From Candidatus Kapaibacterium sp. (GTDB taxonomy: Bacteria; Bacteroidota; Ignavibacteria; Kapaibacteriales; UBA2268): a stretch of DNA of 64,000 nt. Under the pieces are notes generated by a model. That model saw nothing but the letters and a program-made list of their open reading frames with translations. It was not told where the DNA came from and did no database searches. Location of the stretch: NCBI GenBank assembly GCA_026390695.1, contig JAPLFL010000052.1, positions 1 to 64,000 of the forward strand, in the 5' to 3' direction. The position numbers and the translations under genes are program-made. Positions 2,748 through 59,519 of this stretch are shown one piece after another; within the stretch, counting starts at the first letter, position 1; each line of letters opens with the position of its first letter.

Positions 2748-3287
2748 ATGCAAGAGTATGTACCAACAGCAGAACCACTCAATTTCGAGAAAGTCTGGGC
2801 GATGTTTCAGGAGACTGACAAGAAGCAGCAAGTTACTGACAAACAAATAAGTGAACTTGGCAAGCAAATCGGTGGATTAAATAATAAATTTAGTTCATAT
2901 AACGAAGGCTTGTTTTTACCTTCATTAGAGAAAATTCTGGAAAATTCATTTGATTGCACAAACCTTGCGAGACGTTATAAATTTAAAGATAACGGAAATT
3001 CCTTTGAAGTTGATTTGCTCGGAGTGTCTGATACAGCTTGTTATTTAGTTGAAATAAAAAGTTCTTTGCACGAAGAAGCGATTATACAATTAGATAAAAC
3101 AATTGCTAAGTTCAAAGAATTTGATAAACATTATCGCAATGAGAAACTTTATGGTCTCATCTGTGCAACAGATTATAACGATGAAACTATGAAGAAAGTT
3201 CTCAATAGCGGTTACTATTTCATATCAGCAGGTTATGACATTGCCAAACTAATCACATCAGATGATTTCATTCCGAAAGTTGTTTAA
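2748..3287 (+). CDS. PD-(D/E)XK nuclease-like protein with coiled-coil N-terminus
   Basis: Small protein of 179 residues. Residues about 15-50 are charged and Gln/Lys-rich (DKKQQVTDKQISELGKQ), likely a coiled coil. Residues about 80-105 read FEVDLLGVSD then YLVEIKSS, the D...(E)xK arrangement of PD-(D/E)XK nuclease folds. Similar coiled-coil plus restriction-like proteins are abundant, poorly characterised families in Bacteroidota and cyanobacteria, often multi-copy. It is the first gene of an island of small same-strand genes and is followed 16 bp later by the island's recurring repeat. DNA cleavage is inferred only from the fold motif; a target is unknown. Confidence 0.75.
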   Translation: MQEYVPTAEPLNFEKVWAMFQETDKKQQVTDKQISELGKQIGGLNNKFSSYNEGLFLPSLEKILENSFDCTNLARRYKFKDNGNSFEVDLLGVSDTACYLVEIKSSLHEEAIIQLDKTIAKFKEFDKHYRNEKLYGLICATDYNDETMKKVLNSGYYFISAGYDIAKLITSDDFIPKVV

Positions 3288-3302
3288 TATAAATTTCCGC
3301 GA

Positions 3303-3390
3303 AAATGCAAAATGCAGAATGCAAAACCAAAATCAGTCTGCAATGAAGAAGCATTTTACATTAATGAAGGCTGAGGAGTGGGCAAGTGAG
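3303..3390 (+). repeat. Island repeat, copy A
   Basis: About 88 bp that recurs at 3953-4030 and 4566-4660. Shared blocks are ATGCAGAATG, AAAACCAAAATCA, GAAGAAGCATTT or GAAGAATTT, and ATGA(A/T)G(G/A)CTG followed by a GTGGG-like end. ATGCAGAATG and CAGTCTGCA can pair as a short imperfect hairpin. It follows the stop of the nuclease-like gene. Confidence 0.8.
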
Positions 3391-3452
3391 GAAGAAATTG
3401 AAATATCAAATAATCAACTTATATAATCGTTTATAAATATTTTGGAATTTAT

Positions 3453-3650
3453 ATGAACTTTAAAATTGAGTATGAGCAGGAAACAGATGGCAGATGGATT
3501 GCTGAAATTGTATCTGAACCTGGTGTCATGGCTTATGGGAATTCTCCCGATGAAGCTACTGCAAAAGTAAAGGCTCTATTATTCAAAACCATTGCCGATA
3601 GATTAGAAAATGATGAAATTGCATCAGATTTACAAATTGTGAGTTTTTAA
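3453..3650 (+). CDS. HicB-like antitoxin
   Basis: Protein of 65 residues with the HicB/DUF1902 fold pattern: a first strand MNFKIEYEQE, DGRWIAEIVSEPG, and the SPDEATAKVKALLFK helix. HicB proteins bind and neutralise HicA mRNA-cleaving toxins and usually autorepress their operon. No separate DNA-binding domain is present at this length. The stop is 2 bp before the HicA-like gene, the usual pairing. A TTGGAA sequence lies 7 bases before the ATG. Assignment is from pattern and neighbour. Confidence 0.75.
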   Translation: MNFKIEYEQETDGRWIAEIVSEPGVMAYGNSPDEATAKVKALLFKTIADRLENDEIASDLQIVSF

Positions 3651-3652
3651 TT

Positions 3653-3865
3653 ATGGGGATATGGTCATCAACTAAATCAAGAAGAGTTCTTGATGCACTT
3701 TTTAGAATCGGTTTGAAGCTGAAACGAGAGAAAGGTTCAAATAAAATCTTAACAAAAGAAGGTTTTGAGGATTTTGTCTTTGCATTTCATGACAAAGAAG
3801 AAATCGGGCCAAAAATGCTTGCAAGAATTTCAAAGCATACCAATTTAAAGCCTGACAATTTATAA
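3653..3865 (+). CDS. HicA-like toxin lacking the catalytic histidine
   Basis: Protein of 70 residues with the double-stranded RNA-binding-like HicA fold: an N-terminal helix SRRVLDALFRIG, then LKLKREKGSNKIL, and a C-terminal helix GPKMLARISKHTNL. In active HicA proteins the turn is G-S-H; the histidine is the RNase residue. Here the turn is GSN with N30, while the second HicA in this window has H30 at the same position. The protein may be catalytically dead, use another residue, or belong to a divergent subgroup. It lies 2 bp after the HicB-like gene, so the pair is probably co-translated. Confidence 0.7.
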   Translation: MGIWSSTKSRRVLDALFRIGLKLKREKGSNKILTKEGFEDFVFAFHDKEEIGPKMLARISKHTNLKPDNL

Positions 3866-3906
3866 ATCAATGCAGAATGAAAAATCCAGAATGCAGAATG
3901 AAAGAA

Positions 3907-3950
3907 ATTCTTCTCCCCCTTTGAAAAAGGGGGGCAGGGGGGATTTCCAG
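3907..3950. repeat. Palindromic element of the CTCCCCCTTTGAAAAAGGGGG family
   Basis: The sequence CTCCCCCTTTGAAAAAGGGG folds on itself, and it is followed by GCAGGGGGGATTT. A related element sits at 59520-59596. Copies of ATGCAGAATG border it on both sides, so it looks inserted into the start of the island repeat. Confidence 0.65.
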
Positions 3951-3952
3951 AG

Positions 3953-4030
3953 AATGCAGAATGGAAAACCAAAATCATTCTGAATTGAAGAAGAATTTAA
4001 CATTAATGAAGGCTGCGGGGTTGGGGAGAC
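3953..4030 (+). repeat. Island repeat, copy B
   Basis: Second copy of the repeat described at 3303-3390. Its CAGAATG and CATTCTG arms are perfectly complementary around a 12-base loop. It lies between the first and second HicBA pairs. Confidence 0.8.
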
Positions 4031-4120
4031 TAATGAAATAAAAATATTGCAATCTAACTAAAATATTATTTTAAATTTGACGTCTAACTTATTTTCTTAG
4101 AATATTTAATGGAGATTAAA

Positions 4121-4339
4121 ATGAATTTTGATGTACTTGTTGTTTTCGATGAAGAATATCAAGGTTATGTCGTAGATGTTCCTCAGCTTAATGGCTGTAT
4201 GAGCCAAGGAAAAACTATTGAAGAAGCTTTAACAAATATTAAAGATGCAATTCAAGGTTGGCTTTTAGTAGAAAATTCCAAAGGTAATCCTTATATTTCA
4301 ACTTATAAACAGATGTTTCTTACTCAGGTCGCTATTTGA
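4121..4339 (+). CDS. hicB: HicB family antitoxin
   Basis: Protein of 72 residues: MNFDVLVVFDEEYQGYVVDV, then PQLNGCMSQGKTIEEALTNI, the classical HicB partial RNase H-like fold with the P-x-L-x-G-C segment. It neutralises the HicA toxin encoded next. I chose the ATG at 4121 rather than the in-frame ATG at 4109, because GGAG at 4111-4114 sits 6 bases before 4121 and makes a good ribosome site. The stop TGA overlaps the next ATG by one base (TGATG), a sign of translational coupling. Confidence 0.85.
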   Translation: MNFDVLVVFDEEYQGYVVDVPQLNGCMSQGKTIEEALTNIKDAIQGWLLVENSKGNPYISTYKQMFLTQVAI

Positions 4340-4557
4340 TGGGTAATTTTTCAAATTTATCAGGGGAACGTGCAGTTAAAATATTTTTGAAGTTTGGCTA
4401 TCGGATTGCACATCAGACAGGCAGCCATATAATTTTAAATCATAAAAGTCTGCCTACTCTTTCAGTTCCTAATCATAAAGAGCTTGCACCATTTTTGTTA
4501 AGAAGTTTAATTAAGAAGAGTGGAATTGATATTGATGAGTTCTTATCACATAAATAG
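4339..4557 (+). CDS. hicA: HicA family mRNA interferase toxin
   Basis: Protein of 72 residues with the canonical HicA pattern: SGERAVKIFLKFGYRIAHQT, then GSH (H30, the RNase histidine), and SVPNHKELAPFLLRSLIKKS. HicA cleaves mRNA, and free toxin arrests growth until HicB binds it. The start is the ATG at 4339, overlapping the hicB stop; a TTG three bases upstream is a poorer choice. Compare the paralogue at 3653, which has Asn at the His position. Confidence 0.88.
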   Translation: MGNFSNLSGERAVKIFLKFGYRIAHQTGSHIILNHKSLPTLSVPNHKELAPFLLRSLIKKSGIDIDEFLSHK

Positions 4558-4565
4558 GATTCTTC

Positions 4566-4660
4566 AATGCAAAATGAAAAATGCAGAATGGAAAACCAAA
4601 ATCAGTTTACATGGAAGAAGCATTTAACGTTTATGATGACTGCGGAGTGGGATTGTGAGT
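4566..4660 (+). repeat. Island repeat, copy C
   Basis: Third copy of the island repeat, 9 bp after the hicA stop and before the DUF4160 gene. It keeps ATGCAGAATGGAAAACCAAA and GAAGAAGCATTTAAC and ends GCGGAGTGGGATTGTGAG. Confidence 0.8.
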
Positions 4661-4697
4661 ATAATCAGAAAATTAATTAATAATATAAAGGTTTTAC

Positions 4698-4955
4698 ATG
4701 CCTGAAATAAGTAGATTTCTTGGAATAATAATTTATATGGTTTATAACGACCATGAACCTGCACATTTTCACGCTCGTTATGGCGAGTATAAAATTACAG
4801 TTGAGATTGAAACTGGCATAATTCAAGGCAAATTTCCTCGCAGAGCACTAAATGCCGTTCTTGAATGGTATGAAATATATAAATCTCAATTGTCAGATGA
4901 TTGGGAATTAGCTAAACAACATGCTGAATTAAATAAAATACCACCATTGGAGTAA
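4698..4955 (+). CDS. DUF4160 protein
   Basis: Protein of 85 residues. Its first half reads MPEISRFLGIIIYMVYNDHE then PAHFHARYGEYKI; the NDHxPxHFHxxYG segment is the signature of DUF4160. The family has no established biochemical role. It is very often encoded directly before a DUF2442 gene, as here with a 6-bp gap, and the pair has been regarded as a possible toxin-antitoxin module. The conserved histidines could bind metal or form an active site; that is inference. AAAGGT lies shortly before the ATG. Confidence 0.82.
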   Translation: MPEISRFLGIIIYMVYNDHEPAHFHARYGEYKITVEIETGIIQGKFPRRALNAVLEWYEIYKSQLSDDWELAKQHAELNKIPPLE

Positions 4956-4961
4956 ATAATC

Positions 4962-5201
4962 ATGCTTGAAATTATTAATGCTGAATATAGAGATGGTTTT
5001 AATTTATGGCTCGAATTTAATGACGGAACCAAAGGAATTGCCGAGCTTAGTGATTGTCTTTGGGGACAGGTTTTTGAGCCATTGAAAGATAAAAAGTTAT
5101 TTATGAAGTTCAAAATCTCTGCAATCTCAAACACTGTTGAATGGGAAACAGGTGCTGATTTAGCTCCTGAGTTCTTGTATAATAAAGTCAAACATCGTTA
5201 A
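4962..5201 (+). CDS. DUF2442 protein
   Basis: Protein of 79 residues: NAEYRDGFNLWLEFNDGTKG, then LWGQVFEPLKDKKLF and NTVEWETGADLAPEFLY. The D-G-x...W-x-x-G-x-D-(L/I)-x-P-E-x-L pattern is DUF2442, which resembles the N-terminal part of some transcription regulators. It lies 6 bp after the DUF4160 gene and is probably co-translated with it. A partner or antitoxin role is inferred only from this recurring pairing. Confidence 0.82.
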   Translation: MLEIINAEYRDGFNLWLEFNDGTKGIAELSDCLWGQVFEPLKDKKLFMKFKISAISNTVEWETGADLAPEFLYNKVKHR

Positions 5202-5228
5202 TGTAAAATGATTCAATAATGTAAAATT

Positions 5229-5325
5229 AAAAATGCAGAATGAAATGGTGGAAAAGCGCGGCAGCGGGGCTTTAATGCAGAATTTAAAATAAAAAATGCA
5301 GAATGAAATGGTGGAAAAGCGCGGC
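5229..5325. repeat. Direct repeat of a 34-bp segment
   Basis: AAAAATGCAGAATGAAATGG followed by TGGAAAAGCGCGGC occurs at 5229-5262 and again at 5292-5325. The first half shares ATGCAGAATG with the island repeat upstream. Confidence 0.8.
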
Positions 5326-6334: not shown

Positions 6335-6470
6335 GAGATAACGGATGCAGGAAAAGAGATAACGGAACGCAGAAAAGTGATAACGGAACACGGAAAATTA
6401 ATAACGGAACATGGAAAAGAGATAACGGAAGTAGGGAAAATGATAACGGACGCAGGAAAAATGATAACCA
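6335..6470. repeat. Minisatellite, 21-bp period
   Basis: Six to seven tandem units built on GAGATAACGGAACGCAGAAA plus one A. Units differ by a few substitutions and one is 22 bp. GATAACGG is the most constant part. Two other arrays in this window have the same 21-bp period with unrelated sequence. Confidence 0.85.
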
Positions 6471-6568
6471 AAACGTTTTTTGATATAAAATATGCTTTTA
6501 TTAATGTAAAATGAATTCTTTCTATATATTTAATTTACTTTTTTAAGGATTTTTTAAGGATTTTTACG

Positions 6569-6742
6569 ATGGGTGACAAAGGATTTAACAGGACTTATTC
6601 TATGTCCGACGCTAATTTGTGCATGTTTGTTTCTAATTTGATTTCGTTTTTGACTCGCAATCATACCGAATTTGCTCTTTATGGCGTGGATGCGGGCGAT
6701 GTTACCGCGCTCGAAACGCTTGGCAATGCTTCAAAAATATAG
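6569..6742 (+). pseudogene. Probable N-terminal fragment of a larger protein
   Basis: Open frame of 57 codons: MGDKGFNRTYSMSDANLCMF, then VSNLISFLTRNHTEFALYGV and a tail ending LGNASKI. AAGGA lies 8 bases before the ATG, a good ribosome site. The composition is that of a real protein, but the frame stops abruptly after VTALETLGNAS, just as a helical region begins, and the ATGTAGAATG sequence of the local repeats follows the stop. I read it as the surviving start of a longer gene cut off by repeat activity; it could also be a short functional protein. The parent family is not one I can name. Confidence 0.5.
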
Positions 6743-9105: not shown

Positions 9106-9270
9106 ATCATCATGAATTTCGCAATAAAAATTGTTTTGTCTTTTTCAACCGTAGGGCAAACAAGAGTCAACGCTTACAAAGAAACTATCCCCTTAATACC
9201 TTGCCACCTATTAACAAGTCCGGATAACGCAATAGAAACTATTTAAAATAAATAATTATTTATTGATAAA

Positions 9271-9522
9271 TTCAAATCACGAATCTAAGACTTCAAATCA
9301 CAAATCTAAGCTTTCAAATCACAAATCTAAGACTTCAAATCACGAATCTAAGACTTCAAATCACAAATCTAAGCTTTCAAATCACAAATCTAAGACTTCA
9401 AATCACAAATCTAAGGCTTCAAATCACAAATCTAAGACTTCAAATCACAAATCTAAGCTTTCAAATCACAAATCTAAGACTTCAAATCACAAATCTAAGA
9501 CTTCAAATCACAAATCTAAGAT
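9271..9522. repeat. Minisatellite, 21-bp period, 12 units
   Basis: Twelve head-to-tail units beginning TTCAAATCAC and ending AATCTAAG(A/G/C)(C/T). Variation is limited to a few fixed positions (CGAATC or CAAATC; AAGAC, AAGCT, AAGGC), with GAC/GCT variants in a higher-order pattern, showing expansion by multi-unit duplication. No unique spacers exist, so it is not a CRISPR. Confidence 0.92.
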
Positions 9523-9555
9523 ATAATTATTTCAAAAGTAAAATATATATCAAAA

Positions 9556-9633
9556 TTGTCATTCCTACGAATGCAGAAATCTCCTAAATGCCATAGATGT
9601 GGATTCCTGCATTTACAGGAATAACAATCCAGT
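9556..9633. repeat. Degenerate copy of the valS-type palindromic element
   Basis: TTGTCATTCCTACGAATGCA on the left and GATTCCTGCATTTACAGGAA on the right are imperfect inverses, matching the arms of the element inside valS at 13274-13380 with several changes. Confidence 0.75.
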
Positions 9634-22860: not shown

Positions 22861-23043
22861 ACAACCTCAACACGCAGTTAAACTTTCATAATCACCTTTA
22901 CATCGCCCGACAAGTTTATCCCTAAAACTCTATCTCAAACTTATTAGTTATGATTTGGATATTTGGAAAAAATAACTTTCTCCCGAAAGTCGCACCAATC
23001 CTTACTAATTCGTTTACCAAAGAACAATTAATTGTTTACATTA
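22861..23043 (-). promoter_or_regulatory. Leader-like repeated element, copy 1
   Basis: Read on the minus strand this matches 27856-28060 along its whole length, with identical blocks of 32 nt (22873-22904, including GATGTAAAGGTGATTATGAA) and 25 nt (22932-22956, including AACTAATAAGTT, a small hairpin), and GGTGCGACTTTC. ACTTTC-GGGA-GAAAGT forms a perfect stem. It points toward the M6-like gene. It may be a long structured 5' leader, a non-coding RNA or a mobile repeat. Confidence 0.7.
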
Positions 23044-23075
23044 CAAAATTACATAATAGATTTGAATTAAACAAA
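23044..23075 (-). promoter_or_regulatory. Candidate Bacteroidota-type promoter for leader copy 1
   Basis: On the minus strand TTTG (23075-23072), a 20-base spacer and TAATTTTG (23051-23044) match the TTTG-N19ish-TAnnTTTG promoter of Bacteroidota. The conserved leader begins directly downstream. Confidence 0.55.
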
Positions 23076-23182
23076 AATTTGTTAATATATTTATAAATAT
23101 TAAAGTGAAATTCTAATGATTTATTTTTTAAAGAATGGAAATGTCCTGACAGAGGTTGGCACTCTTCCTATTCCCTTCCCGT

Positions 23183-23289
23183 CGGATAATATCATTCCCT
23201 TGTTGAAACGAGTATAACACACAGTTCGTTTCGACTCCGATCATCGAGCTATACAGTTCACTATACGTAATCGAAGGGAATATTGTCCG
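23183..23289. other. Multi-stem structured segment of unknown nature
   Basis: CGGATAATATCATTCCC (23183-23199) pairs with GGGAATATTGTCCG (23276-23289), and inside it GTTGAAACGA (23202-23211) pairs with TCGTTTCGAC (23226-23235). The nesting suggests a branched RNA or DNA fold. It lies between the nrdJ stop and the leader copy. No gene assigned. Confidence 0.45.
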
Positions 23290-23369
23290 ATTGCAATAAG
23301 GAAATGATATAAAATTAACCAATAATTTTATAACTTTATAAACTTTCATCTTGGAACTTATATTATATC

Positions 23370-23399
23370 CCACCATACAAATTTAGTTCTGTATGGTGG
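23370..23399. terminator. Hairpin after nrdJ
   Basis: CCACCATACA and TGTATGGTGG form a perfect 10-bp stem about 45 bp after the nrdJ stop. There is no strong T-run on the minus-strand side, so termination is probable rather than certain. Confidence 0.5.
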
Positions 23400-23443
23400 T
23401 AATATTTTCTTCAACTTTATAACATTATAAGCTTGTAACTGAT

Positions 23444-26400
23444 TTAGGAACAGCCGCTGGTTGTTCCACAATCATCACAAACCGTACAGCTTCCGTTCCG
23501 GCGTACTCGCATAGAACCGCAATTATTGCACTGTTCGCCGGTATAGCCCTGATGTTTTGCTTCAGTATAAGATTTAACTTTTTCTAATTTATTGCCGTTT
23601 CGCTTTGGAACTGTTCCTGAAGGAAAATCAGCATAAACAAGATCATTTATTCTATCATCAATAATATCTTTATCTGGTGAAAAATCCAACCCGGAATTAA
23701 CATTATGTGTTTGTCCGGTTGCAGTCGGTTCAAGTGTTGAATTATCATCGGATTTATCGGGTTCCTCGTCAACTGCCTTAACATGAACAAAATCCGTGCG
23801 ATTAAGATAATCGTAACCTAACGAACGAAATACGTAATCCAAAATTGAAGTTGCTGATTTTATTGCTTCGTGCCCTTCTACATAACCGGCTGGCTCAAAG
23901 CGTGTAAAAGTAAATGAATCAACAAGTTCTTCTAATGGTACACCATATTGCAAAGCTTTTGATGCCAAAATAGCGAAACTATTGAGTAATCCGCGGAAAG
24001 AGGCACCTTCTTTATACATATCAATAAATATCTCACCCAAAGCACCATCATCGTATTCACCGGTACGCAAATAAACTTTATGACCGCCAACATAAGCTTC
24101 GCGAATGTGGCCGTGACGTTTTTTTGGTAGTTTATAACGAGTGGCCTGATATTGCAAGCGATTGGCAATTACTTCCTGAATTTCTTTTGGTCCTTTGGTT
24201 TCATCAAGATCAGCTTCGTCACCAAGAGAAATAATTTCATCAAGATCGGCATAATTCGCTGAATTAAGCGGTTGCGATAACTTGGAACCATCGCGGTAAA
24301 GAGCAATAGCCTTGAGCATTTTTTTCCATGATTTCATATAAACATCACCGATATCAGCAATGGTAGCTTCACGCGGCATATTTACCGTTTTAGAGATTGC
24401 ACCTGATATAAAAGGTTGAGCCGCTGCCATCATCTGTACATGAGCAAAATGTGCTATATAACGTTGTCCTTTTTTACCACATTTATTTGCAGTATCAAAT
24501 ATAGGTAAATGCTCGGTTTTTAAGTGTGGTGCACCTTCTATCATCATTGTTCCACAAATATAATCATTAGCTTTTTCGATTTCGTCTTCACTATATCCAA
24601 GTGCAACCAACAAATTAAAATCTTTATCATCAAGCTGCTGATCGGTAAACCCAAGCTTCTTAAAGAACTCCTCACCTAAAGTCCATTTATTGAATGCAAA
24701 TTTTATATCAAAAACATTATCAAGCTGTTCTTCAATAATATTTATCTTTTCATCAGTAAAACCATGCTCCTTGAGTGACTTTTTATTGATAACAGGTGCT
24801 CCGACTAATGAGCCGGTTCCCTTACAGTACTTTTCAATATCTTCTATTTGTTTATCAGTGTAATGCAGCTTCTGTAGCGCTCTGCGGACGGATTGATTAA
24901 CAATTTTAAAATATCCGCCACCAGCTAATTTTTTATACTTAATAACAGCAAAATCTGGTTCAATCCCAGTTGTATCACAATCCATAATTAATCCAATAGT
25001 ACCCGTAGGAGCCAGAACAGTTACCTGAGCATTGCGATAGCCAAATTCTTCTCCATTTTTTATAGCTTTGTTCCATGTTTCCCGAACAGCATGGTGCAAA
25101 TATTGAGGACAATACTTAGGTTCAATTCCCATTGGTTTAATTGTCAAGTCTTCGTATTCAACTGGAGAAGCATTCAGTGCAGCCCGGCGGTGATTCCGCA
25201 TAACTTTCAACATGTGTTTCTTGTTCAACTCATATTCAGGAAACGAACCAAACTCTTTTGCCATTTCGGCTGATGCAGCATAAGCTTCCCCAGTCATAAG
25301 AGCCGAAATAGCTCCTGTCATTGCAGATGCTTCGGGAGAATCATAAGGAATGCCGCTCACCATCAGCAGACTACCGAGATTTGCATATCCAAGTCCGAGA
25401 GTCCTGAATTTGTAGCTTAAATCGGCCACACGTTTTGATGGGAATTGAGCCATCAGAACGGATATTTCGAGGATAGTCGTCCAAATTCTGACAGCATGAC
25501 GAAAATCTTCTACAAGAAATTCTCCTGTTTCCTCATCCAGAAATTTAATTAGATTCAGACTGGCTAAATTGCATGCGGTATCATCCAAAAACATATATTC
25601 GCTACATGGATTACTCGCATTTATTCTACCTGATTCAGGACAGGTGTGCCATTCATTGATTGTTGTGTCGTACTGTAAGCCCGGATCGGCAGATTTCCAA
25701 GCATTGAGATTGATTTTCTCCCATAATTGGCGAGCACGTATCTGTTTAACAGTTTTATCGTTGGTTCGCCACTTCAGTTCCCACATTTCATCTTTTTCTA
25801 CAGCCTTCATAAACTCATTTGTTATCCTGACCGTATTATTGGAATTCTGTCCGCTAACAGTCTGGTAGCCTTTCCCTTCATAATGAGTATCAAATATATC
25901 AAGGTTAAGAGAAGTAAAGCCCTGATCCACCATTTGCAAGACTCTTTCGATATAAGACAGCGGAACTCCGCGATGCAAGGCATTTTGTATAAGGTTATTC
26001 AGTTTTTTATTTTCTTTCCTATCCGATCCGTTAGAAATAGCTTCTTCTAATATTGCCTGCATGAATGTTGCGTTAACCTTGGAACCCGCAACCAAAGCTG
26101 CAACTTTTTCTTCTTCCTTAGCTTTCCATTCAATAAATTCTTCAATATCCGGATGATCTATATTTAAAATAACCATCTTAGCGGCTCTGCGAGTGGTTCC
26201 ACCGGATTTTATCGCTCCGGCTGCACGGTCAAATATTTTCAAAAAGCTCATCAGTCCTGATGAAACACCACCACCTGAAAGTATTTCACCTTCAGCACGA
26301 ACATTTGAAAAGTTCGTTCCCGATCCGGAACCAAATTTAAATATCAATGCTTCACGAGTAGCTAAATCAAAAATTCCACCTTCACCGATTAATTCATCTG

Positions 26401-26965
26401 AAATAGACTGAATGAAGCATGCGTGAGGCTGAGGGCGGGAATAAGCATCTTCGGATTTTAAAATTTCTTTTGTTTCAGGTTCCACATAATAATGTCCCTG
26501 ACCGCGGCCACTGATGCCGTAAGCATAGTTCAAACCGGTATTAAACCATTGAGGGGAGTTTGGAGCCGAAATCTGCTTCAGCAGCATAAAAGCTGTCTCG
26601 TCATAGAATATCTGAGAATCTTCGGTACTGTCGAAATACTTGTATTTATCACCCCAGTGCTGCCAGCAGCCAGCCATACGATGAACTACCTCTTTTATTG
26701 ATGTTTCGGCTCCCAAAATCTGCTTGCCGTTTTCATCAAGAATCGGTTTACCATAAGCATCAACCTGTGGGACTCCGGTTTTTCTGAAATATTTCTGGGC
26801 TAAAATATCCGTAGCTACCTGAGACCAACTACTCGGAACTTCGATATTATCCATGCGGAAAACTACGCTCCCATCGGGATTTCTCATCAATGATGTTCTT
26901 TTAGTATAGGTTAATAGCTCGTAAGGACTTTTTCCTTCTTTGGTAAATTTTCTTGTAAATTTCAT
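23444..26965 (-). CDS. nrdJ: Adenosylcobalamin-dependent ribonucleotide reductase (class II)
   Basis: Enzyme of 1173 residues that makes deoxyribonucleotides with a B12-generated thiyl radical, with or without oxygen. Active site: N452-P-C454-S-E456 with C454 as the radical cysteine, C465 ([10 protein letters not shown]) exactly 11 residues on, and C183 (HACFIQS) as its redox partner, matching the spacing in characterised NrdJ. Phosphate or barrel motifs [12 protein letters not shown] (near 134) and [20 protein letters not shown] follow. The C-terminal tail carries clustered cysteines ([20 protein letters not shown], then CGTTSGCS), the zinc-binding and thiol-exchange end of this long form. 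No NrdR site or cobalamin riboswitch is apparent upstream. Confidence 0.95.
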
Positions 26966-27239
26966 CAGTCTATTTCTTATAAATTGTTCATTCTTATTAA
27001 ATTATATACTTTATTGCGAAAAATTAATTTCTTTCAATACTAAAGTCAGGGTTTTCTTCAGAATTAGTTGTAACTAATCTTAAACTTTTTCAATTTGTTT
27101 GCATGAGGAAATCTCCCCCCCCTCAAATATGCAATACGAAATTAGCAAGAATATATTTCAAGTAAAAAAAAAGTTTTCCACAAAAAAGAGGAAGCAACAA
27201 CCAGAGCGTCGTTCCAGATAATAAAATTTATCCACATAC

Positions 27240-27674
27240 CTATTTTTCGAAACCAATTACAGTGATTTCAACTTCGGCAACTCCTTGGCTAAGCATTTCT
27301 ATTTCTATGGCAGCAGCTTTTGATAGATCAATTATTCGATCTCCAACAAAGGGACCACGGTCATTCACTCGGACAGTAGCGGTTTTCCCGCTATTAAGAT
27401 TTTTAACCGATAGCAAAGTTCCAAAGGCTAATTCTTTATGAGCTGCAGTCATTGCGTTATTCAGAAAGATTTCGCCATTGGCGGTCATTTTGCCATTGAA
27501 GCTATCGGCATAATAAGATGCTTTACCATAAAATTTAGCTCCAATAACCACATCAGAAGCCTGTTTTGAAAATTTAGAATTTTTCGTATAATCATTTATA
27601 GTTGAAGAAAACCGAATTCCGGAGCTGCACCCGAAAAGTGAAATAAAAAGTAAATTTAAAATTAAAATTCTCAT
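27240..27674 (-). CDS. RlpA-like septal ring lytic transglycosylase or DPBB lipoprotein
   Basis: Protein of 144 residues. The N-terminus MRILILNLLFISLFGCSSG is a lipoprotein signal with lipobox LFGC (Cys16). The double-psi beta-barrel follows: GKASYYADSFNGKMTANGEI, then MTAAHKELAFGTLLSV and TVRVNDRGPF, ending IIDLSKAAA. RlpA proteins cleave naked glycan strands at the division site in some species. The SPOR domain of larger homologues is absent. It lies alone upstream of nrdJ on the same strand with a 274-bp gap. Confidence 0.88.
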   Translation of the reverse strand: MRILILNLLFISLFGCSSGIRFSSTINDYTKNSKFSKQASDVVIGAKFYGKASYYADSFNGKMTANGEIFLNNAMTAAHKELAFGTLLSVKNLNSGKTATVRVNDRGPFVGDRIIDLSKAAAIEIEMLSQGVAEVEITVIGFEK

Positions 27675-27847
27675 ATTCGAAAATTAAGAAAAAATTGTGG
27701 GTAAATTGGCTTATCAATTATTTTAGTTAACTGACAAGCTTTTTCAAGATAATTCCACACTTTAAAAAATAAATCATTAGAACTTCACTTCAATTTATTT
27801 TTTTCTAATCATGTAAAATAATTCTTTAATAGTTAAAAAATTTTTAC

Positions 27848-27855
27848 TAATTTTG
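27848..27855 (+). promoter_or_regulatory. Candidate -7 element (TAATTTTG) for leader copy 2
   Basis: TAATTTTG matches TAnnTTTG. TTTA at 27825-27828 is one base from the TTTG -33 element at 19 bases spacing. The same TAATTTTG stands at the same place beside leader copy 1. Confidence 0.5.
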
Positions 27856-28060
27856 GAATGTAATTTAATTAAATAATTGTTATTTGTTATTTGGCAAACG
27901 AATTAATAAGGATGGGTGCGACTTTCAGGAGAAATTTATTTCTTCTCAAATCCAAAATCAAATCATAACTAATAAGTTTGAGATTATGTTGAAGGCATGA
28001 AAGTGTCGGGAAGGATGTAAAGGTGATTATGAAAGTTTAACTGCGGGTTGAACATATTTA
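27856..28060 (+). promoter_or_regulatory. Leader-like repeated element, copy 2
   Basis: Plus-strand match to the element at 22861-23043. The identical blocks are at 27960-27984 (25 nt) and 28014-28045 (32 nt); GGTGCGACTTTC is at about 27916-27927. Here the ACTTTC stem is weaker (AGGA loop, GAAATT), while AACT-AATA-AGTT is kept. It points toward the Cys-rich secreted protein about 200 bp downstream. Confidence 0.7.
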
Positions 28061-34312: not shown

Positions 34313-34484
34313 ATTTGGATTTATAAATTCTTTTTCTTAATTTTGAATAATTGAATTAATTTTGTAACGTTCTTTGATTTGATTATTCGTTCTTGAAAAT
34401 AAATTGGTGGAGTCCAGAACCCACTCTAAAAAAACGGGGCGTTACCGAAAAGCCATACGAGTAGGAATCTTCATTGGAGGTATT

Positions 34485-51956: not shown

Positions 51957-52019
51957 ATTTCTTTTGTGTAATGTTAATAATTCAATTTATTTTAATGACG
52001 ATTGAACAAGCTTATTATT

Positions 52020-53354
52020 TTACCTCCCCACCACAAAAATGCCACCACTTACATTTCCTACCCGAACATAATAAACTCCCTCCGGCAGCGCAGAAACATC
52101 TATTCTTACTCCCTCTCCTTTGGAGAGGGCCGGGGTGAGGTCTCCAGAGGTTTGTGTGAGGTTCTTCAGTTCCTCCCCAAGCATATTATAAATCCGGATT
52201 AATGAACCTTCCGAAGGTTTCAAACCTTCGGAAGGTTGGCTAATATTTATAATATCAGAAACTGGATTTGGGCTAATCTTTATTCCAGCGGGCTGTGGCG
52301 GCTCTGGCTCTTTCACTGAAATATATCTCTGGTGGGAACGGAATAATCTGCCATCTTGCATTCCAACATAAATATAACCATCAGGGGAGGTTTCAATACA
52401 TGTAGGTTTATCATCATTATTTCTAATCATCATTGTATCGGATATGTCTTCAAAACTGCTTAAATCACTTTTATAGCGTCTTACATCATATTTAAAATCC
52501 TTAATGGTTGTGTCCCAATTCGTACCAGAGGTTATGAAATTATACATTGAATCTAATGCAAAAGGTCGATACAAAGGTTCATAATTAAAGTACAAATATC
52601 CTGTGTCTTTAACCCAAGTATTTCCATTATCTCTTGATATCACTTTGTCAGAATAATCCGAACTAATGCCGCAATCACTTTTCGGATTGAAAAGAATAGG
52701 GACATATTGATCTGGACAAGTTGTGCAATCAATTGGTTTCCTAACATATTTCCATGTTTTGCCTGTGTCTATGCTTTTTTGGATGGCGTAATCTTTTGAG
52801 CTTACAGCGAATAATTCGCCAAAATTATTAAATGCGATTCCTTTTGGCCAAGAATAATCCCAACAACCTCGGGCATACCAAGTATCTCCATAATTGGTAG
52901 AATAATATATTTGATGTCCAGTATTTGAACCGGTAACAATCATACCATTTGATAATTCTAAGAAATTTGTAGGATTAAGCCACTGCAAAATTCCTGTGCT
53001 ATCATCTGGAGCAGAATCTCCTGAATAATCCCAAGTTTTACCACCATCTTTGGAACGACTCACTCCACTACGACTCTGATAATTATATCCACTAACAAAA
53101 ATAAATCCATTCTTTGCTATAAAAAGATTATAAGGCACCCAATCTAATAATCTATCCCAAGAGATACCATTTTTAGATGATTTAGAAATTCCTGCATGTC
53201 CAGCGTAACCAATGAAAATATCATTGGATTTATTAAATGTCATACAAATGATTATAATACTATCTTTTGGACTATTTATTTCATCCCAAAATACCTCTTT
53301 CGAATATATAAATTCGGAAGATATAAATAATAAAATTATATAAATTTTAAGCAT
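52020..53354 (-). CDS. YCF48-like secreted protein with T9SS sorting domain, paralogue 1
   Basis: Protein of 444 residues. The start is the ATG at 53354 with GGAG 5 bases upstream; an ATG at 53405 lies inside the preceding terminator. Signal peptide: MLKIYIILLFISSEFIYS. Propeller strands include GISKSSKNGISWDRLL, SRSKDGGKTWDYSG and KSIDTGKTWKYVRK. The sorting domain begins ISPNPVSDIINIS and ends EGVYYVRVG. It contains two translated palindromes: EGLKPSEGS (52205-52237) and LTPALSKGEGV (52108-52140). The middle, from KDYAIQKSIDTGKTW to about SMYNFITSGT, is identical to paralogue 3, while the N-terminal part differs, so the gene is a mosaic. Confidence 0.85.
   Translation of the reverse strand: MLKIYIILLFISSEFIYSKEVFWDEINSPKDSIIIICMTFNKSNDIFIGYAGHAGISKSSKNGISWDRLLDWVPYNLFIAKNGFIFVSGYNYQSRSGVSRSKDGGKTWDYSGDSAPDDSTGILQWLNPTNFLELSNGMIVTGSNTGHQIYYSTNYGDTWYARGCWDYSWPKGIAFNNFGELFAVSSKDYAIQKSIDTGKTWKYVRKPIDCTTCPDQYVPILFNPKSDCGISSDYSDKVISRDNGNTWVKDTGYLYFNYEPLYRPFALDSMYNFITSGTNWDTTIKDFKYDVRRYKSDLSSFEDISDTMMIRNNDDKPTCIETSPDGYIYVGMQDGRLFRSHQRYISVKEPEPPQPAGIKISPNPVSDIINISQPSEGLKPSEGSLIRIYNMLGEELKNLTQTSGDLTPALSKGEGVRIDVSALPEGVYYVRVGNVSGGIFVVGR
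52108..52140. repeat. Palindromic element in coding sequence (GGAGAGGG family)
   Basis: CTCCCTCTCCTTTGGAGAGG followed by GCCGGGGTGAGG. It is translated in frame as LTPALSKGEGV inside the sorting domain. Same family as 5442-5524. Confidence 0.85.
52205..52237. repeat. Palindromic element in coding sequence (CCTTCCGAAGG family)
   Basis: AACCTTCCGAAGGTTTCAAA continuing to CCTTCGGAAGGTT is a 15-bp inverted repeat around CAA-like centre, itself made of two AACCTTCC/GGAAGGTT hairpins. Translated as EGLKPSEGS on the minus strand. Confidence 0.9.
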
Positions 53355-53359
53355 ATTAA

Positions 53360-53408
53360 CTCCAAAAAATAAAACATGAATAGTGATAAATACATCACTA
53401 TTCATGTT
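53360..53408 (-). terminator. Terminator after the small sorting-domain gene
   Basis: A perfect 15-bp stem AACATGAATAGTGAT / ATCACTATTCATGTT (53373-53408) is followed on the minus strand by TTTTATTTTTT. It lies just after the gene at 53424-53900. Confidence 0.88.
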
Positions 53409-53423
53409 TAAATTATCAACTAA

Positions 53424-53900
53424 TTATCTTTTTAAAATCATTTGTTCACGTGAAACTATATTGCCCTCAATGGATAATATACAAATATAATTTCCATTAA
53501 CTAAACCATCACCATAGAAGGTAGCAATGTTTTTCCCCTTTTTCAACTTACCCTGATATAATAATTTAATCTCTCTTCCTTCTATGTCTAATATCTGAAG
53601 TTTTACATCAACTTCTTCATTTAATCTAAATTCAATTATAGTTTGATTATCAAATGGATTCGGATAAATAGCCGTTATGCCCGTTACTTCTTCTTTTTCC
53701 TTAGTTGGTTCAGTTTGAGAGCCAATTGTTTTATAACTACCTCCAGGTGGCGGGGCTTCTGTGGTAACTATACGAGTGATATTACCCAATATTTGTGTAT
53801 GGTTATAAATAATCAAGGATTTTGAGCTGCTCTTGAAGTTCATCTCCGCTAAAGCAGTCAAATTGGTAATTATTAAAAGAATACATAGTATAAATTTCAT
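53424..53900 (-). CDS. Short exported protein consisting mainly of a T9SS sorting domain
   Basis: Protein of 158 residues. I start at the ATG at 53900 because AAAGG lies 5 bases upstream and a signal peptide follows (MKFILCILLIITNLTALAEM). A short linker (PPPGGSYKTIGSQTEPTKEK) leads to a full sorting domain: AIYPNPFDNQTIIEFRLNEE, then LQILDIEGREIKLLY and GNYICILSIEGN. Almost no passenger remains. Its 3' half is nearly repeated in the fragments at 55896 and 58028, so it is the intact member of that set. The mazF-like toxin gene ends 14 bp upstream. Confidence 0.82.
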   Translation of the reverse strand: MKFILCILLIITNLTALAEMNFKSSSKSLIIYNHTQILGNITRIVTTEAPPPGGSYKTIGSQTEPTKEKEEVTGITAIYPNPFDNQTIIEFRLNEEVDVKLQILDIEGREIKLLYQGKLKKGKNIATFYGDGLVNGNYICILSIEGNIVSREQMILKR

Positions 53901-53914
53901 GTGTACCTTTCTAT

Positions 53915-54259
53915 TCATGTTGGGATGGTTCTAATATTAGACAGTATTTTTTCTATTAAATCATAATAAGGTTTTTCGTTCATGCGAGCTATTGTTTTAA
54001 TTATCAGTGACTTTTCAATTGTAAGAATTTTATTGGTTCGTACTTCACTCCTTTGTACAAGCAAATTATCTAACATAAAATCTTCGATCAAAAACGAGAA
54101 ATTATCGTTGCGAATTACAGAGCTCATTTGAGCGATTATCACATCATTTGTCGAATTTAATCTGTAATTCGAGATAACAATTGCAGGTCGCTGTTTATAT
54201 TGAGTTAGGTTACTGAATGGAAACGGAACAATGATTATGTCTCGGGTAAAGAATTTCAT
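53915..54259 (-). CDS. MazF/PemK-family toxin
   Basis: Protein of 114 residues with the MazF fold: MKFFTRDIIIVPFPFSNLTQ, then KQRPAIVISNYRLN and the strand VIIAQMSSVI; the RP-A-(I/V)-V motif and F-P-F-S-(D/N) loop are typical. MazF proteins are sequence-specific endoribonucleases that cut mRNA. The start overlaps the upstream antitoxin stop by 4 bases (ATGA). The module lies next to a T9SS gene pair inside a tandem paralogue array. Confidence 0.87.
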   Translation of the reverse strand: MKFFTRDIIIVPFPFSNLTQYKQRPAIVISNYRLNSTNDVIIAQMSSVIRNDNFSFLIEDFMLDNLLVQRSEVRTNKILTIEKSLIIKTIARMNEKPYYDLIEKILSNIRTIPT

Positions 54260-54468
54260 ATATTATCCCAAACATCATTAGCTGGATTATTCCATTCTTC
54301 GGCAAATGAAGGTTCAGCAAGTTTATACCTTGACAAATTATCTGAAATAAAGTCACTATCAGGATTTAATATTGAAATTTGAGGAATTTTTAAAAAATTA
54401 ACCAATTCAATAATTTCACTATTATCCAGTAGTTCAATCTGACTTTTTATTGTTTCAAGTGTATTCAT
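54256..54468 (-). CDS. Antitoxin partner of the MazF-like toxin
   Basis: Protein of 70 residues: NTLETIKSQIELLDNSEIIE, then a tail LAEPSFAEEWNNPANDVWDN. The helical N-terminus followed by an acidic, Trp-containing disordered tail is typical of DUF2281-like antitoxins, whose tails plug the toxin active site. Its stop overlaps the toxin start. GGAG lies before the ATG. Confidence 0.82.
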   Translation of the reverse strand: MNTLETIKSQIELLDNSEIIELVNFLKIPQISILNPDSDFISDNLSRYKLAEPSFAEEWNNPANDVWDNI

Positions 54469-54521
54469 AATAACTCCAATTTATATAAAATAAATATCGA
54501 CGTTCAATTATATTTCTTATT

Positions 54522-55826
54522 TTACCTCCCCACCACAAAAACAGCACCGTTCACATTGCCAACTCGAACATAATAAACGCCTTCCGGCAGCGCAGAAACA
54601 TCGATTCTTCCTCCCCTCTCCTTCGGAGAGGGGCCGGGGGTGAGGTCTCCAGAGGTTTGTGTGAGGTTCTTCAGTTCTTCCCCAAGCATATTATAAATCC
54701 GGATTAATGAACCTTCCGAAGGTTTCAAACCTTCGGAAGGTTGGCTAATATTAATAAAATCACACGCTGGATTTGGGCTAATCTTTATTCCAGCGGGCTG
54801 CTGCGGCTCTGGCTCCTTCACTGAAACATAACGCTGGTGGGAACGGAATAATCTGCCATCTTGCATTCCAACATATATATAGCCGTCAGGAGAGGTTTCT
54901 ATGCAAGTTGGAACGTCGGAGCGACTATTAAAAATTCCATCAGTAATATCTTCATAGCTGCTAAAATCATTCTTGCAACGTCGTATTGTTCTTATATAAT
55001 CTTTAACAGAATCATGATATATCCATCCCGAAGTAATGAAATTGTACATGGAATCTATACAATAAGGAGGTAAAAAAACCGTTTCGACATCGCTTGTATC
55101 AATCCATGTTTTACCTTGATTATTTGTGATTGCTGCATGTATACCCTCTATACCATAATCACTTTTCGGATTGAAAAGAATAGGGACATATTGATCTGGA
55201 CAAGTTGTGCAATCAATTGGTTTCCTAACATATTTCCATGTTTTGCCTGTATCTATGCTTTTTTGGATGGCGTAATCTTTTGAGCTTACAGCGAATAATT
55301 CGCCAAAATTATTAAATGCGATTCCATTTGTGCCGGAATAATCCCAACATCCATGGGCAAACCATGTATCACCAAAATCGGTTGTATAGTGTATTTGTCG
55401 TGATGAAGACGAACCAGCTACAATCATTCCATTAGCTAATTCTATAAAATTACTTACCCAAAACCATTGCATTTTACCAGTACTATCGTCTGGAACTGAA
55501 TCACCTGTATGCTTCCAAGTAATTCCGTAATCTTTAGATATTACGACACTTATTCCAATACTATGTGCCGATCCAAACAATATTCTTTCCTTTGAAAAAA
55601 ATAAATTAGTAACAGTATATTGTGCACTTAAAAGCCATGTTTTCCCATTATCAGTTGATTTTCTAATATAATCTTCACCAACATATATGTTATTACTATC
55701 ATCAAAAGTAATTGCATTAATCCCAGAAATATTAATAGGTGGGTAATTTAATTTTTCCCATAGAAAATCTTTGGAATATAAAAAACTGGTTAGATATACG
55801 AACCAAATTAAAAATATTTTTATCAT
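54522..55826 (-). CDS. YCF48-like secreted protein with T9SS sorting domain, paralogue 2
   Basis: Protein of 434 residues; GGAG lies 5 bases before the ATG. Signal peptide MIKIFLIWFVYLTSFLYS. Strands NGKTWLLSAQYT, DYGITWKHTG, DFGDTWFAHG and KSIDTGKTWKYV form the propeller. FNNFGELFAVSSKDYAI through LFNPKSD is identical to paralogue 1, but the stretch after it (YGIEGIHAAITNNQGKTWID) is unlike paralogues 1 and 3. The sorting domain again holds EGLKPSEGS (54710-54742) and a longer GGAGAGGG-family insert read as LTPGPSPKERGGR (54608-54645). Confidence 0.85.
   Translation of the reverse strand: MIKIFLIWFVYLTSFLYSKDFLWEKLNYPPINISGINAITFDDSNNIYVGEDYIRKSTDNGKTWLLSAQYTVTNLFFSKERILFGSAHSIGISVVISKDYGITWKHTGDSVPDDSTGKMQWFWVSNFIELANGMIVAGSSSSRQIHYTTDFGDTWFAHGCWDYSGTNGIAFNNFGELFAVSSKDYAIQKSIDTGKTWKYVRKPIDCTTCPDQYVPILFNPKSDYGIEGIHAAITNNQGKTWIDTSDVETVFLPPYCIDSMYNFITSGWIYHDSVKDYIRTIRRCKNDFSSYEDITDGIFNSRSDVPTCIETSPDGYIYVGMQDGRLFRSHQRYVSVKEPEPQQPAGIKISPNPACDFINISQPSEGLKPSEGSLIRIYNMLGEELKNLTQTSGDLTPGPSPKERGGRIDVSALPEGVYYVRVGNVNGAVFVVGR
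54608..54645. repeat. Palindromic element in coding sequence (GGAGAGGG family)
   Basis: CTCCCCTCTCCTTCGGAGAG followed by GGGCCGGGGGTGAGG; translated as LTPGPSPKERGG. A near-identical copy is at 56703-56739. Confidence 0.85.
54710..54742. repeat. Palindromic element in coding sequence (CCTTCCGAAGG family)
   Basis: Identical to 52205-52237: AACCTTCCGAAGG, then TTTCAAACCTTCGGAAGG, read as EGLKPSEGS. Confidence 0.9.
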
Positions 55827-55895
55827 ATTAACTCCAAAAAATAAAACATTTATAATGATTTATTTATCACTATTCATGTATAAATTACCAATTAA

Positions 55896-56099
55896 TTATC
55901 TTTTTAAAATTATTTGCTCACGAGAAATTATATTGCCTTCGATGGATAAAATACAAATATAATTTCCATTGGATAAACCATCTCCATTAAATGTGGCAAT
56001 GTTTTTTCCTTTTTTCAATTTACCGTTATACAAAACTTTTATTCCCCGACCTTCCATATCAATTACTTTTAAATTAATAAACCTCATCGTGTGATCCAT
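55896..56099 (-). pseudogene. 5'-truncated T9SS sorting-domain gene
   Basis: The remaining frame carries only the last 50-odd residues of the sorting domain seen at 53424 (KVIDMEGRGIKVLYNGKLKK, then DGLSNGNYICILSIEGN). Upstream of IDMEGRG the reading frame runs into the tail of the RelE-like toxin, so the signal peptide and first half have been lost. The sequence stops matching at the same point as the fragment at 58028. Confidence 0.8.
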
Positions 56100-56355
56100 A
56101 AGACAATAAAATTATTTCTGTAAGATTGTGGTTAATGATCCTGATTTGGAAAATGATTCTTTGGTCGTATTCAACTGTACAAGCGTAATTCCCTAATAAA
56201 TTTCCCTTCAGTTTATGTGTATGAAGTAGTGGATGAAATATATCGGATTCGAGTAATTCTAATGCAAAATTAATTTTTTCTGCAAGTTCAGGTCTAAATT
56301 TGATGGACTTTTTTACAGCTCTTATGAAATTATGCGTCCACACAAACTCAATCAT
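56074..56355 (-). CDS. RelE/YafQ-family toxin
   Basis: Protein of 93 residues with the RelE/ParE fold: VWTHNFIRAVKKSIKFRPEL, LLESDIFHPLLHTHKLKGNL, then YACTVEYDQRIIFQIRIINH and EIILLSYGSHDEVY. HTHKLKG...Y and the final G-S-H-D-E-V-Y are typical of YafQ-type mRNA endonucleases. Its start overlaps the antitoxin stop by 4 bases (ATGA). Its last 26 bases overlap the frame of a truncated sorting-domain gene. Confidence 0.88.
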   Translation of the reverse strand: MIEFVWTHNFIRAVKKSIKFRPELAEKINFALELLESDIFHPLLHTHKLKGNLLGNYACTVEYDQRIIFQIRIINHNLTEIILLSYGSHDEVY

Positions 56356-56561
56356 GATAATATCTCTTTCTTTAATTTTTCACGATTACCGCGGGATACA
56401 TTATTGTTTTGATAATCAATCATTCCGACTTCAACATCCATTTCAATTTGTTTCCGATGTTCTGAAATTATTTTTTTATTTAAAATATCTACTAATAATT
56501 CCTGTTCTGAAATGTCGAACTCATCGACTGTATCTAAAAGTTCATCGAAAGTTGGTTTCAT
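56352..56561 (-). CDS. Antitoxin partner of the RelE-like toxin
   Basis: Protein of 69 residues, helical and acidic at the start (FDELLDTVDEFDISEQELLV) with a charged tail (SRGNREKLKKEILS). The order antitoxin then toxin with a 4-base overlap is usual. No DNA-binding motif can be named with confidence. Confidence 0.8.
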   Translation of the reverse strand: MKPTFDELLDTVDEFDISEQELLVDILNKKIISEHRKQIEMDVEVGMIDYQNNNVSRGNREKLKKEILS

Positions 56562-56614
56562 TATTTCCTCAAATTATTTAAAATTCAATTAAACGAATAA
56601 CACTTTTCTTTATT

Positions 56615-57952: not shown

Positions 57953-57973
57953 TTCAACTCCAAATATAAAAGA

Positions 57974-58010
57974 ACCTGTATCATGCAATTAATATCAGCA
58001 CTATACAGGT
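57974..58010 (-). terminator. Hairpin after the third sorting-domain fragment
   Basis: ACCTGTAT and ATACAGGT form an 8-bp stem around a 21-base loop, at the position equivalent to the terminator at 53373-53408. On the minus strand TCTTTTATATTTGG follows. Confidence 0.55.
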
Positions 58011-58027
58011 CCAAAGTTTAAAAATTA

Positions 58028-58202
58028 TTATCTATTTAAAATGATCTTCTGCATTGAAATTACATTACCATCCAAAGAAAGTAAGCATACATAAGAACCA
58101 TTTACAATGCCATCACTATAAAATGTAGCTATATTATTTCCTTTTTTCAATTTTCCATTATACAAAACTTTTATTCCCCGACCTTCCATATCCATAATTT
58201 TA
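58028..58202 (-). pseudogene. 5'-truncated T9SS sorting-domain fragment
   Basis: Minus-strand reading gives IMDMEGRGIKVLYNGKLKKG, NNIATFYSDGIVNGSYVCLL and SLDGNVISMQKIILNR then stop. This equals the second half of the gene at 53424, diverged. Upstream the match ends just before IMDMEGRG, at the same place as in the fragment at 55896; a fibronectin-like gene follows. No start with a ribosome site is evident. Confidence 0.8.
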
Positions 58203-58236
58203 AAATAAATATAAATTGATTATCATATTCCAGTTA

Positions 58237-58878: not shown

Positions 58879-58960
58879 AATAGACCTCATTTTTTTGAAT
58901 AAACAGTTAATTAGTATATATTAGGATATAATCCTCTGTTTAAATCATTTGGTAAACTCA

Positions 58961-59215
58961 ATTTTTACCGGCACTCTTGCAATTTTTACCGGCACTCTTG
59001 CAGTTTTTACCGGCACTCTTGCAGTTTTTACCGGCACTCTTGCAGTTTTTACCGGCACTCTTGCAATTTATACCGGCATTCTTGCAATTTATACCGGCAT
59101 TCTTGCAATTTATACCGGCACTCTTGCAATTTATACCGGCACTCTTGCAATTTTCACCGGTATTTTCTCTTTCGTTGCCGGTATTTTCTCTTCTGTTGCC
59201 GGCATTATTTCTTAC
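58961..59215. repeat. Minisatellite, 21-bp period
   Basis: Nine close units built on TTTTACCGGCACTCTTGCA with two more A/T bases, followed by about three decayed units containing GTTGCCGG. Adjacent variants (TTTTTACCGG, TTTATACCGG; CACTC, CATTC) occur in runs, showing local duplication. Unrelated in sequence to the arrays at 6335 and 9271 but with the same period. Confidence 0.92.
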
Positions 59216-59519
59216 GTTGTTTATACTTTTTCTTTCGCTACCTGCACTATATTCAAATATATTGTATAAGACTCATTTATTATTTATTTATTTTATTGTA
59301 TTGGATAAAAAAAATAAATTTATTTTTGATTCATGTAATTTATACAGATTCAAGAATTATTTGAATGCTGATATTTGCGACAGTATGTTGTGGTGAATCC
59401 ACAAAATCCGTTAGCGGATTGAGGAATAATCAACCTTGTAAAATATTTAAATAAACCCAAATATTTCATTAAGATTTAACGTAATTGAAATATTATACGT
59501 TAATAAAGAGCTTTTTTAA

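Follow-up and report, generated by a model that had tools for sequence, protein, structure and literature searches.

We analysed a 64,000-nucleotide stretch of DNA (hereafter the window; positions 1-64000 of contig C61) from a draft genome of Candidatus Kapaibacterium sp. (4.63 Mb in 129 contigs), in which four small gene modules stand in a row and are separated by copies of one short repeat, here named R. All four modules lie on the forward strand: a gene for a PD-(D/E)XK nuclease-like protein of the DUF3782 type, two HicBA toxin-antitoxin (TA) pairs, and a DUF4160/DUF2442 pair. An sppA-like gene with a Pfam Peptidase_S49 match (552-2456) forms the upstream border of the row, and a gene-poor stretch rich in repeats borders its far side.

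This composition had been proposed from the letters of the DNA alone, and it is supported by Pfam matches, homologues in a relative, and the conserved residues and fold of the DUF3782 protein. Module 1 (2748..3287) encodes 179 amino acids and scores 22.9 bits against Pfam DUF3782, just under the cut-off of 24.4. Four of its residues (E53, D89, E102, and K104) are invariant across 25 sequences, and its predicted structure (mean pLDDT 80) matches the nucleases EndoMS, R.BspD6I small subunit, and Can2 (E 3e-4 to 1e-2) with modest TM-scores of about 0.3-0.46 by query length. The predicted PD-(D/E)XK nuclease fold of this module is well supported. In module 2, the HicB-like antitoxin (3453..3650) has no Pfam match and shares 47% identity with a HicB-like protein in an array of the relative G014 (same family, other genus), and the HicA toxin (3653..3865) matches Pfam HicA_toxin with 32.4 bits and is 63% identical to a G014 HicA. 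Module 3 consists of a HicB antitoxin (4109..4339; HicB_lk_antitox, 37.1 bits) and a HicA toxin (4336..4557; HicA_toxin, 52.4 bits), and module 4 of DUF4160 (4698..4955; 73.7 bits) and DUF2442 (4962..5201; 46.8 bits) genes.

The repeat between the modules

Each of the window's three gaps holds one copy of R, which is 74 nucleotides (nt) long and is composed of an 11-mer motif (AATGCAGAATG) and a 63-nt core. The copies belong to one repeat family with three ungapped members at 3302-3390, 3944-4032 (74% identity to the first), and 4571-4659 (83%). The search model R1 places them on the forward strand at 3311..3384 (82.3 bits), 3953..4026 (81.6 bits), and 4580..4653 (71.3 bits), and the next-best site in the window reaches 13 bits. 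A chance origin of these copies is excluded: the window contains a 25-nt R core at three sites, whereas 100 shuffles contained none. The common repeat that the sequence-only reading had placed after the first three modules was thus borne out, whereas two of its further suggestions held only in part. After module 4, where a decayed relative was suspected, two 45-nt pieces (5218..5325, forward strand) carry the AATGCAGAATG motif (at 5232 and 5295) but lack the 63-nt core. The suggested CAGAATG/CATTCTG hairpin is perfect in copy 2 but imperfect in the other copies, and the fold of the alignment shows no covariation. Directly before copy 2 stand AATGCAGAATG motifs and a GC-rich insert (3869..3952, forward strand; insert at about 3901-3952), and this insert was found again before four of the 12 R copies on contig C21.

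Two other identities for R were rejected. As an RNA structure it has 13 pairs, none with a compensatory change, and an unfavourable covariation term, and no Rfam match falls in the array; as a coding remnant it lacks codon-position bias. The sole Rfam match in the window is a DUF805 RNA at 34402-34471 (76.7 bits).

The 74-nt model was searched over 296 genomes of the phylum, including the genome under study. In the latter, 16 matches reach at least 65 bits: 12 on C21, three in the window, and one on contig C80. All 16 lie in module arrays, so that R does not sit mainly away from small genes, which was one of two results that could have spoken against the sequence-only reading. Two weaker copies, on contigs C11 and C105, adjoin a DUF3782 gene and a ParE-like gene (labels by eye). 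Among the other genomes of the phylum, the best match was 25 bits, and weak matches in 32 of them were treated as chance. R was found neither in 39 relatives nor in a plasmid search; an exact 20-mer of R had no match in genome_contigs and a 23-mer none in viral_contigs, and a phage search gave two chance-like 25-nt matches.

The AATGCAGAATG motif alone occurs 124 times in the genome, many of them outside arrays (reversed control, 0). Since the motif is widespread and strong R copies occur in islands only, R can be described as a composite of two parts, a short motif that is dispersed and a core of 63 nt that is confined to modules. The dispersed part lends some weight to a passive reading, in which R would be a dispersed palindromic or short-repeat element that gathers downstream of acquired operons, perhaps as an insulator or terminator, and has no role in moving modules; the position of the copies, 3-116 nt past a stop codon and 35-96 nt ahead of the next start, also favours it. 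We consider this reading unlikely, if far from negligible, as the core is confined to module arrays, other arrays carry unrelated repeats, covariation is absent, and no T run stands directly behind the hairpin.

The mean pairwise identity of R copies is 81.6%, and copies of the window are as similar to those on C21 (0.821) as to each other (0.81-0.85). On C21, neighbouring copies are not more alike than non-neighbours (0.806 vs. 0.812; shuffle p = 0.75). These values point to a single pool of R common to the islands. Local tandem duplication of R was considered as well and was rejected, given the absent neighbour effect on C21.

R islands and arrays with other repeats

Contig C21 carries ten modules on one strand, nine TA and one restriction-modification (R-M), within about 8.6 kb (some labels by eye). 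These are a RelB-like antitoxin with a broken toxin (by eye), DUF2281-PIN, HicBA, YefM-YoeB, BrnTA, HicBA, HicBA, AbrB-PIN, MazEF, and an MvaI/BcnI R-M module, where the AbrB, BrnA, MazE, and HicB partners were assigned by eye. R is present in all nine gaps, with one copy in seven gaps, two in one, and three in one. The YefM-YoeB module (locus L009, 12159-11023) has tandem R on both sides, three copies versus two, and the R-R junction sequence is much the same. In two neighbouring HicBA modules of C21, identity is 32-53% per 60-nt step up to R and 93% from there, whereas the two HicBA pairs of the window show 35-55% identity all along; R is therefore not tied to module type. On C80, R flanks an AbrB-PIN pair, and weak R relatives stand between and before a ParE pair and an MNT-HepT pair (locus L010, 8706-9979).

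By way of HicA genes, we reached further TA arrays in this genome and in G014 that have a like layout and different repeats. On contig C75, a HicBA module and two RelE-type modules (RelE by eye) are spaced by a repeat that corresponds to the start of a Fib_succ_major lipoprotein gene, with the region upstream of it and its first codons; complete copies of this gene stand within the row and at its end. All five long copies and one partial copy of this repeat are on C75, and one short element inside it is dispersed. The two RelE-type units show an identity of 0.88-0.92 only from inside the 3' end of the toxin gene through the repeat, a pattern that gene conversion or homologous exchange near the repeat would produce. 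On contig C77 of the same genome, three modules face -, +, and -, and four repeats all run in the same direction, the first of which borders a truncated transposase-like gene. The first 10 kb of C80 hold DUF3782, HicBA, and two DUF4160/DUF2442 pairs, i.e., the same kinds of modules as the window (by eye), spaced by composite repeats, one of which contains an Rhs-core fragment (by eye). This Rhs-containing repeat is also found on C77 and C125. On contig C41 (locus L068, 6242-12716), an Rhs-type gene and orphan-like modules are followed by two HicBA pairs in alternation with Rhs-core fragments (by eye). The window's R resembles the Rhs-core fragment of C80 by eye, but we make no claim for this likeness.

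The repeats of C75 and C77 raise the question of whether R could be a long target duplication, in which, whenever a foreign module inserts, repair with template switching places a copy of 50-170 nt of the DNA on one side of the module also on the opposite side, and the repeat does not recombine later. A repeat that equals the 5' end of a neighbouring gene, one that borders a truncated transposase-like gene, and the free orientation of modules are all in keeping with this idea. It is nevertheless quite improbable, as the same R occurs in three separate islands, its window and C21 copies are equally alike, and the Rhs-containing repeat of C80 recurs on two further contigs. To our knowledge, no mechanism duplicates one same stretch over and over, and we count this against it as well.

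In the relative G014, one contig (also numbered C77) carries a row of some eleven modules, among them two DUF3782 genes and a pair of HicBA genes that resembles the window's first; the names of these modules were mostly given by eye, and HicA and DUF3782 alone were tested. The repeat of this array has 19 copies, which are confined to three contigs. Three homologous DUF3782 nuclease units occupy three array places on two contigs and have different neighbours. For the DUF3782 pair on the G014 contig C77, the homologous block spans the interval between two successive repeats, with its start within the first (GAGCTTTGTGGT) and its end within the second (CTTTGTATTC). Based on these repeat-bounded blocks, the jump in identity at R on C21, the common pool of R, and the exchange pattern on C75, we read R and its module as one unit.

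Direct repeats within 400 bp on both sides were found for 8 of 53 DUF3782 genes and for 4 of 312 control stretches; 58 of 75 loci entered this test, with most short partial matches omitted, and five more were lost to short flanks. Two of the eight (Microcystis; loci L100 and L102) are tandem gene duplicates, such that 6 of 53 remain, and some of the remaining repeats resemble dispersed or low-complexity elements. We do not lean on this comparison.

Minisatellites of 21 bp adjoin genes of one family without Pfam match (43 matches in the genome) on C21, C80, and C75. The same family is also found near the TA arrays of C21, C75, C77, and C80 and near a HicA gene on contig C25. In the window, 21-bp minisatellites occur at 6338-6480, 9208-9584, and 58917-59251, and an open reading frame at 6569-6742 by eye resembles a remnant of this gene family.

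Comparison with integrons

The likeness to cassette arrays noted from the sequence holds for the small modules split by one repeat, and this layout recurs with other repeats, but it is not supported for the classical cassette with a recombination site of its own. Specifically, no integrase exceeds the cut-off, R has no attC core, and repeats vary between arrays. Nor does one site accompany each cassette in the orientation of its gene: the window has three R copies for four modules, and the mixed module orientations on C77 of this genome (-, +, -) are combined with repeats that are all on the + strand. For the integron integrase model TIGR02249 (cut-off 265 bits), the best match in this genome was 88 bits, and none of the 36 genomes of the family has a match over the cut-off. 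The cut-off was exceeded in 3 of 60 relatives, all from other families of the same order, which indicates that the search works.

The ends of an attC site pair with each other, as R'' (RYYYAAC) and R' (GTTRRRY). Among 15 copies of R, GTTRRRY was found in none and RYYYAAC in two. A strict attC finder reported no site in seven array stretches, and its sensitivity is limited, with sites at one of three control loci (two 60-bp sites beside one control integrase and none beside the other two). A relaxed search also gave no site in all seven arrays; because two of its three control loci had no clear excess over shuffles (1 vs. 2.8 and 7 vs. 4.7), it was set aside and the strict search alone was used. 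A canonical integron, or a cluster of attC sites lacking an integrase (CALIN), would explain why most modules are followed by one repeat in a row that keeps to one strand, and TA cassettes occur in integrons. Given the negative results for TIGR02249, GTTRRRY, and the attC finder, such an identity is extremely improbable. R was also compared with an E. coli-type dif sequence, which may not be that of the host: mismatches amount to 5-7 of 20 positions, compared with 7.65 on average and 4 at best for random 74-mers.

Proposed accumulation of modules at an anchor repeat

In our best reading, the window holds one small example of a class of stockpiles in which TA and nuclease modules are anchored by a repeat. 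The layout is well supported, the mechanism only moderately so. As a first choice that is tentative and still short of probable, we propose that the array grew by homologous recombination, with R anchoring each module. The unit would be one promoter-plus-operon module with one copy of R, a short sequence that would act as a homologous anchor. An incoming or excised circle of R and module would join at an existing R by general (RecA-type) recombination and leave R duplicated, one copy on each side of the module, and repeated joining could then give R-module-R-module rows of unrelated modules. The observations are the layout, the occurrence of R in islands only, repeats that differ from array to array, similar R copies beside unrelated modules, and repeat-bounded homologous units in the relative. 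We infer the circles, the dependence on RecA, the direction of growth, the origin of the window's R, and continued movement of modules. Homologous recombination at a short anchor is the cheapest account, by analogy with what has been proposed for cdiA/rhs orphan arrays.

Several points weigh against this proposal. No second strain shows gain or loss of a unit, and the genomes searched include none of the same genus. The genome is a draft of 129 contigs, and since repeats invite mis-joins, the arrays could be partly mis-joined. With 74 nt and about 82% identity, R is short for efficient RecA recombination. There is no R before module 1 and no cored R after module 4 in the window, and C21 has no R after its last module. 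Furthermore, half copies stand at some array ends (the first of C21, the last of C80, and the first of C77). The C21 half copy keeps the right part and is joined to another repeat type, and that of C80 keeps the left part. Such half copies are not predicted by plain homologous recombination at full R, whereas an att-like crossover would predict them. The half copies and the modest identity of R thus leave room for a site-specific system as well as for a passive repeat.

In a site-specific cassette system, a recombinase would cut a fixed point of each array's repeat, for instance at CATTTTACATTAA in the family of the window or at GCTTTGT in that of G014, and would insert circular module-plus-R units. 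The opposite halves kept at the ends of C21 and C80 overlap at CATTTTACATTAA, the unit boundaries in G014 lie at GCTTTGT, and this genome has 20 tyrosine recombinase matches. We still judge such a system unlikely, since no common core is visible among the repeats of different arrays in a single genome, one repeat derives from a gene start and another includes an Rhs fragment (by eye), modules on C77 of this genome face both ways, CATTTTACATT is itself a variant form of the 11-mer that is dispersed through the genome, and some of the predicted end copies are missing from the window and C21. A broader and rather improbable variant is a form of cassette capture beyond integrons, Xer, and transposons, in which a putative dedicated recombinase or specialised route would both excise and insert circles of module plus repeat at the repeats proper to each array, and each array would coin its site from local sequence. 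If true, such capture would be a general route to TA islands in Ignavibacteria and perhaps in other phyla.

Growth by homologous recombination at R has a precedent in the orphan toxin-immunity arrays of rhs and cdiA, for which recombination at a homologous stretch is a proposed driver (PMC4927057). In both kinds of arrays, unrelated toxin-plus-antidote modules stand in rows and each is accompanied by a short stretch that is homologous to its neighbours', and on C41 HicBA pairs alternate with Rhs core fragments (by eye). However, no cargo of the type of a secreted toxin C-terminus with immunity was found here; the cargo is intracellular and consists of type II TA, nuclease, and R-M modules (HicBA, DUF4160/2442, PIN, PemK/MazF-like, BrnT, YoeB, and MvaI/BcnI R-M), and a toxin gene is not required as the anchor. 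Fragments of a parent gene stand beside the modules on C75 (the Fib_succ_major start) and, by eye, on C41, whereas for the window family none was found and R shows no codon-position bias.

Clustered TA pairs of different classes are also the hallmark of toxin-antitoxin system (TAS) islands, and C21 contains such pairs closely spaced. According to the passages on TAS islands in Makarova et al. (2009; PMC2701414), preferential incorporation or the transfer of multi-pair cassettes are possible causes, tandem duplication does not explain the clustering, and the cause is left open; these passages mention no repeat between modules, in contrast to the arrays described here. Integron arrays and CALINs share the unit layout, the mostly single strand, and TA cargo, but differ in the integrase, the attC core, and repeats that here vary between arrays of one genome. 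The Xer-dependent dif modules of Acinetobacter plasmids are likewise small, shuffled, bounded by short sites, and in many cases equipped with TA genes, but their pdif sites have 28 bp compared with the 74 nt of R (PMC13141974). In the minimal mobile elements of Neisseria, whole-gene cassettes are found between conserved flanks, but these flanks are two conserved genes rather than a short repeat iterated between many modules (PMC3898611). A literature search with limited terms, mostly at the level of abstracts, found no description of such repeat-spaced TA arrays.

Arrays of unrelated modules spaced by one array-specific repeat suggest that modules can accumulate by anchorage at a repeat, with no need for an integrase. 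TA genes are gathered in islands in many genomes, and these arrays have a bearing on why this is so, an open question that they make testable. They also caution against taking every cassette-like array for an integron.

Two other repeat-rich regions were noted in the window. At 52012-58211, three long direct repeats (63-88% alike, spacing about 2.1-2.5 kb) are accompanied by 47-nt palindromes that carry CCTTCCGAAGGTT. At 22867-28051, several pairs of inverted repeats, 38-81 nt long and with 83-97% complementarity, enclose about 4.6-5.1 kb, which may represent a mobile element or an inverted duplication.

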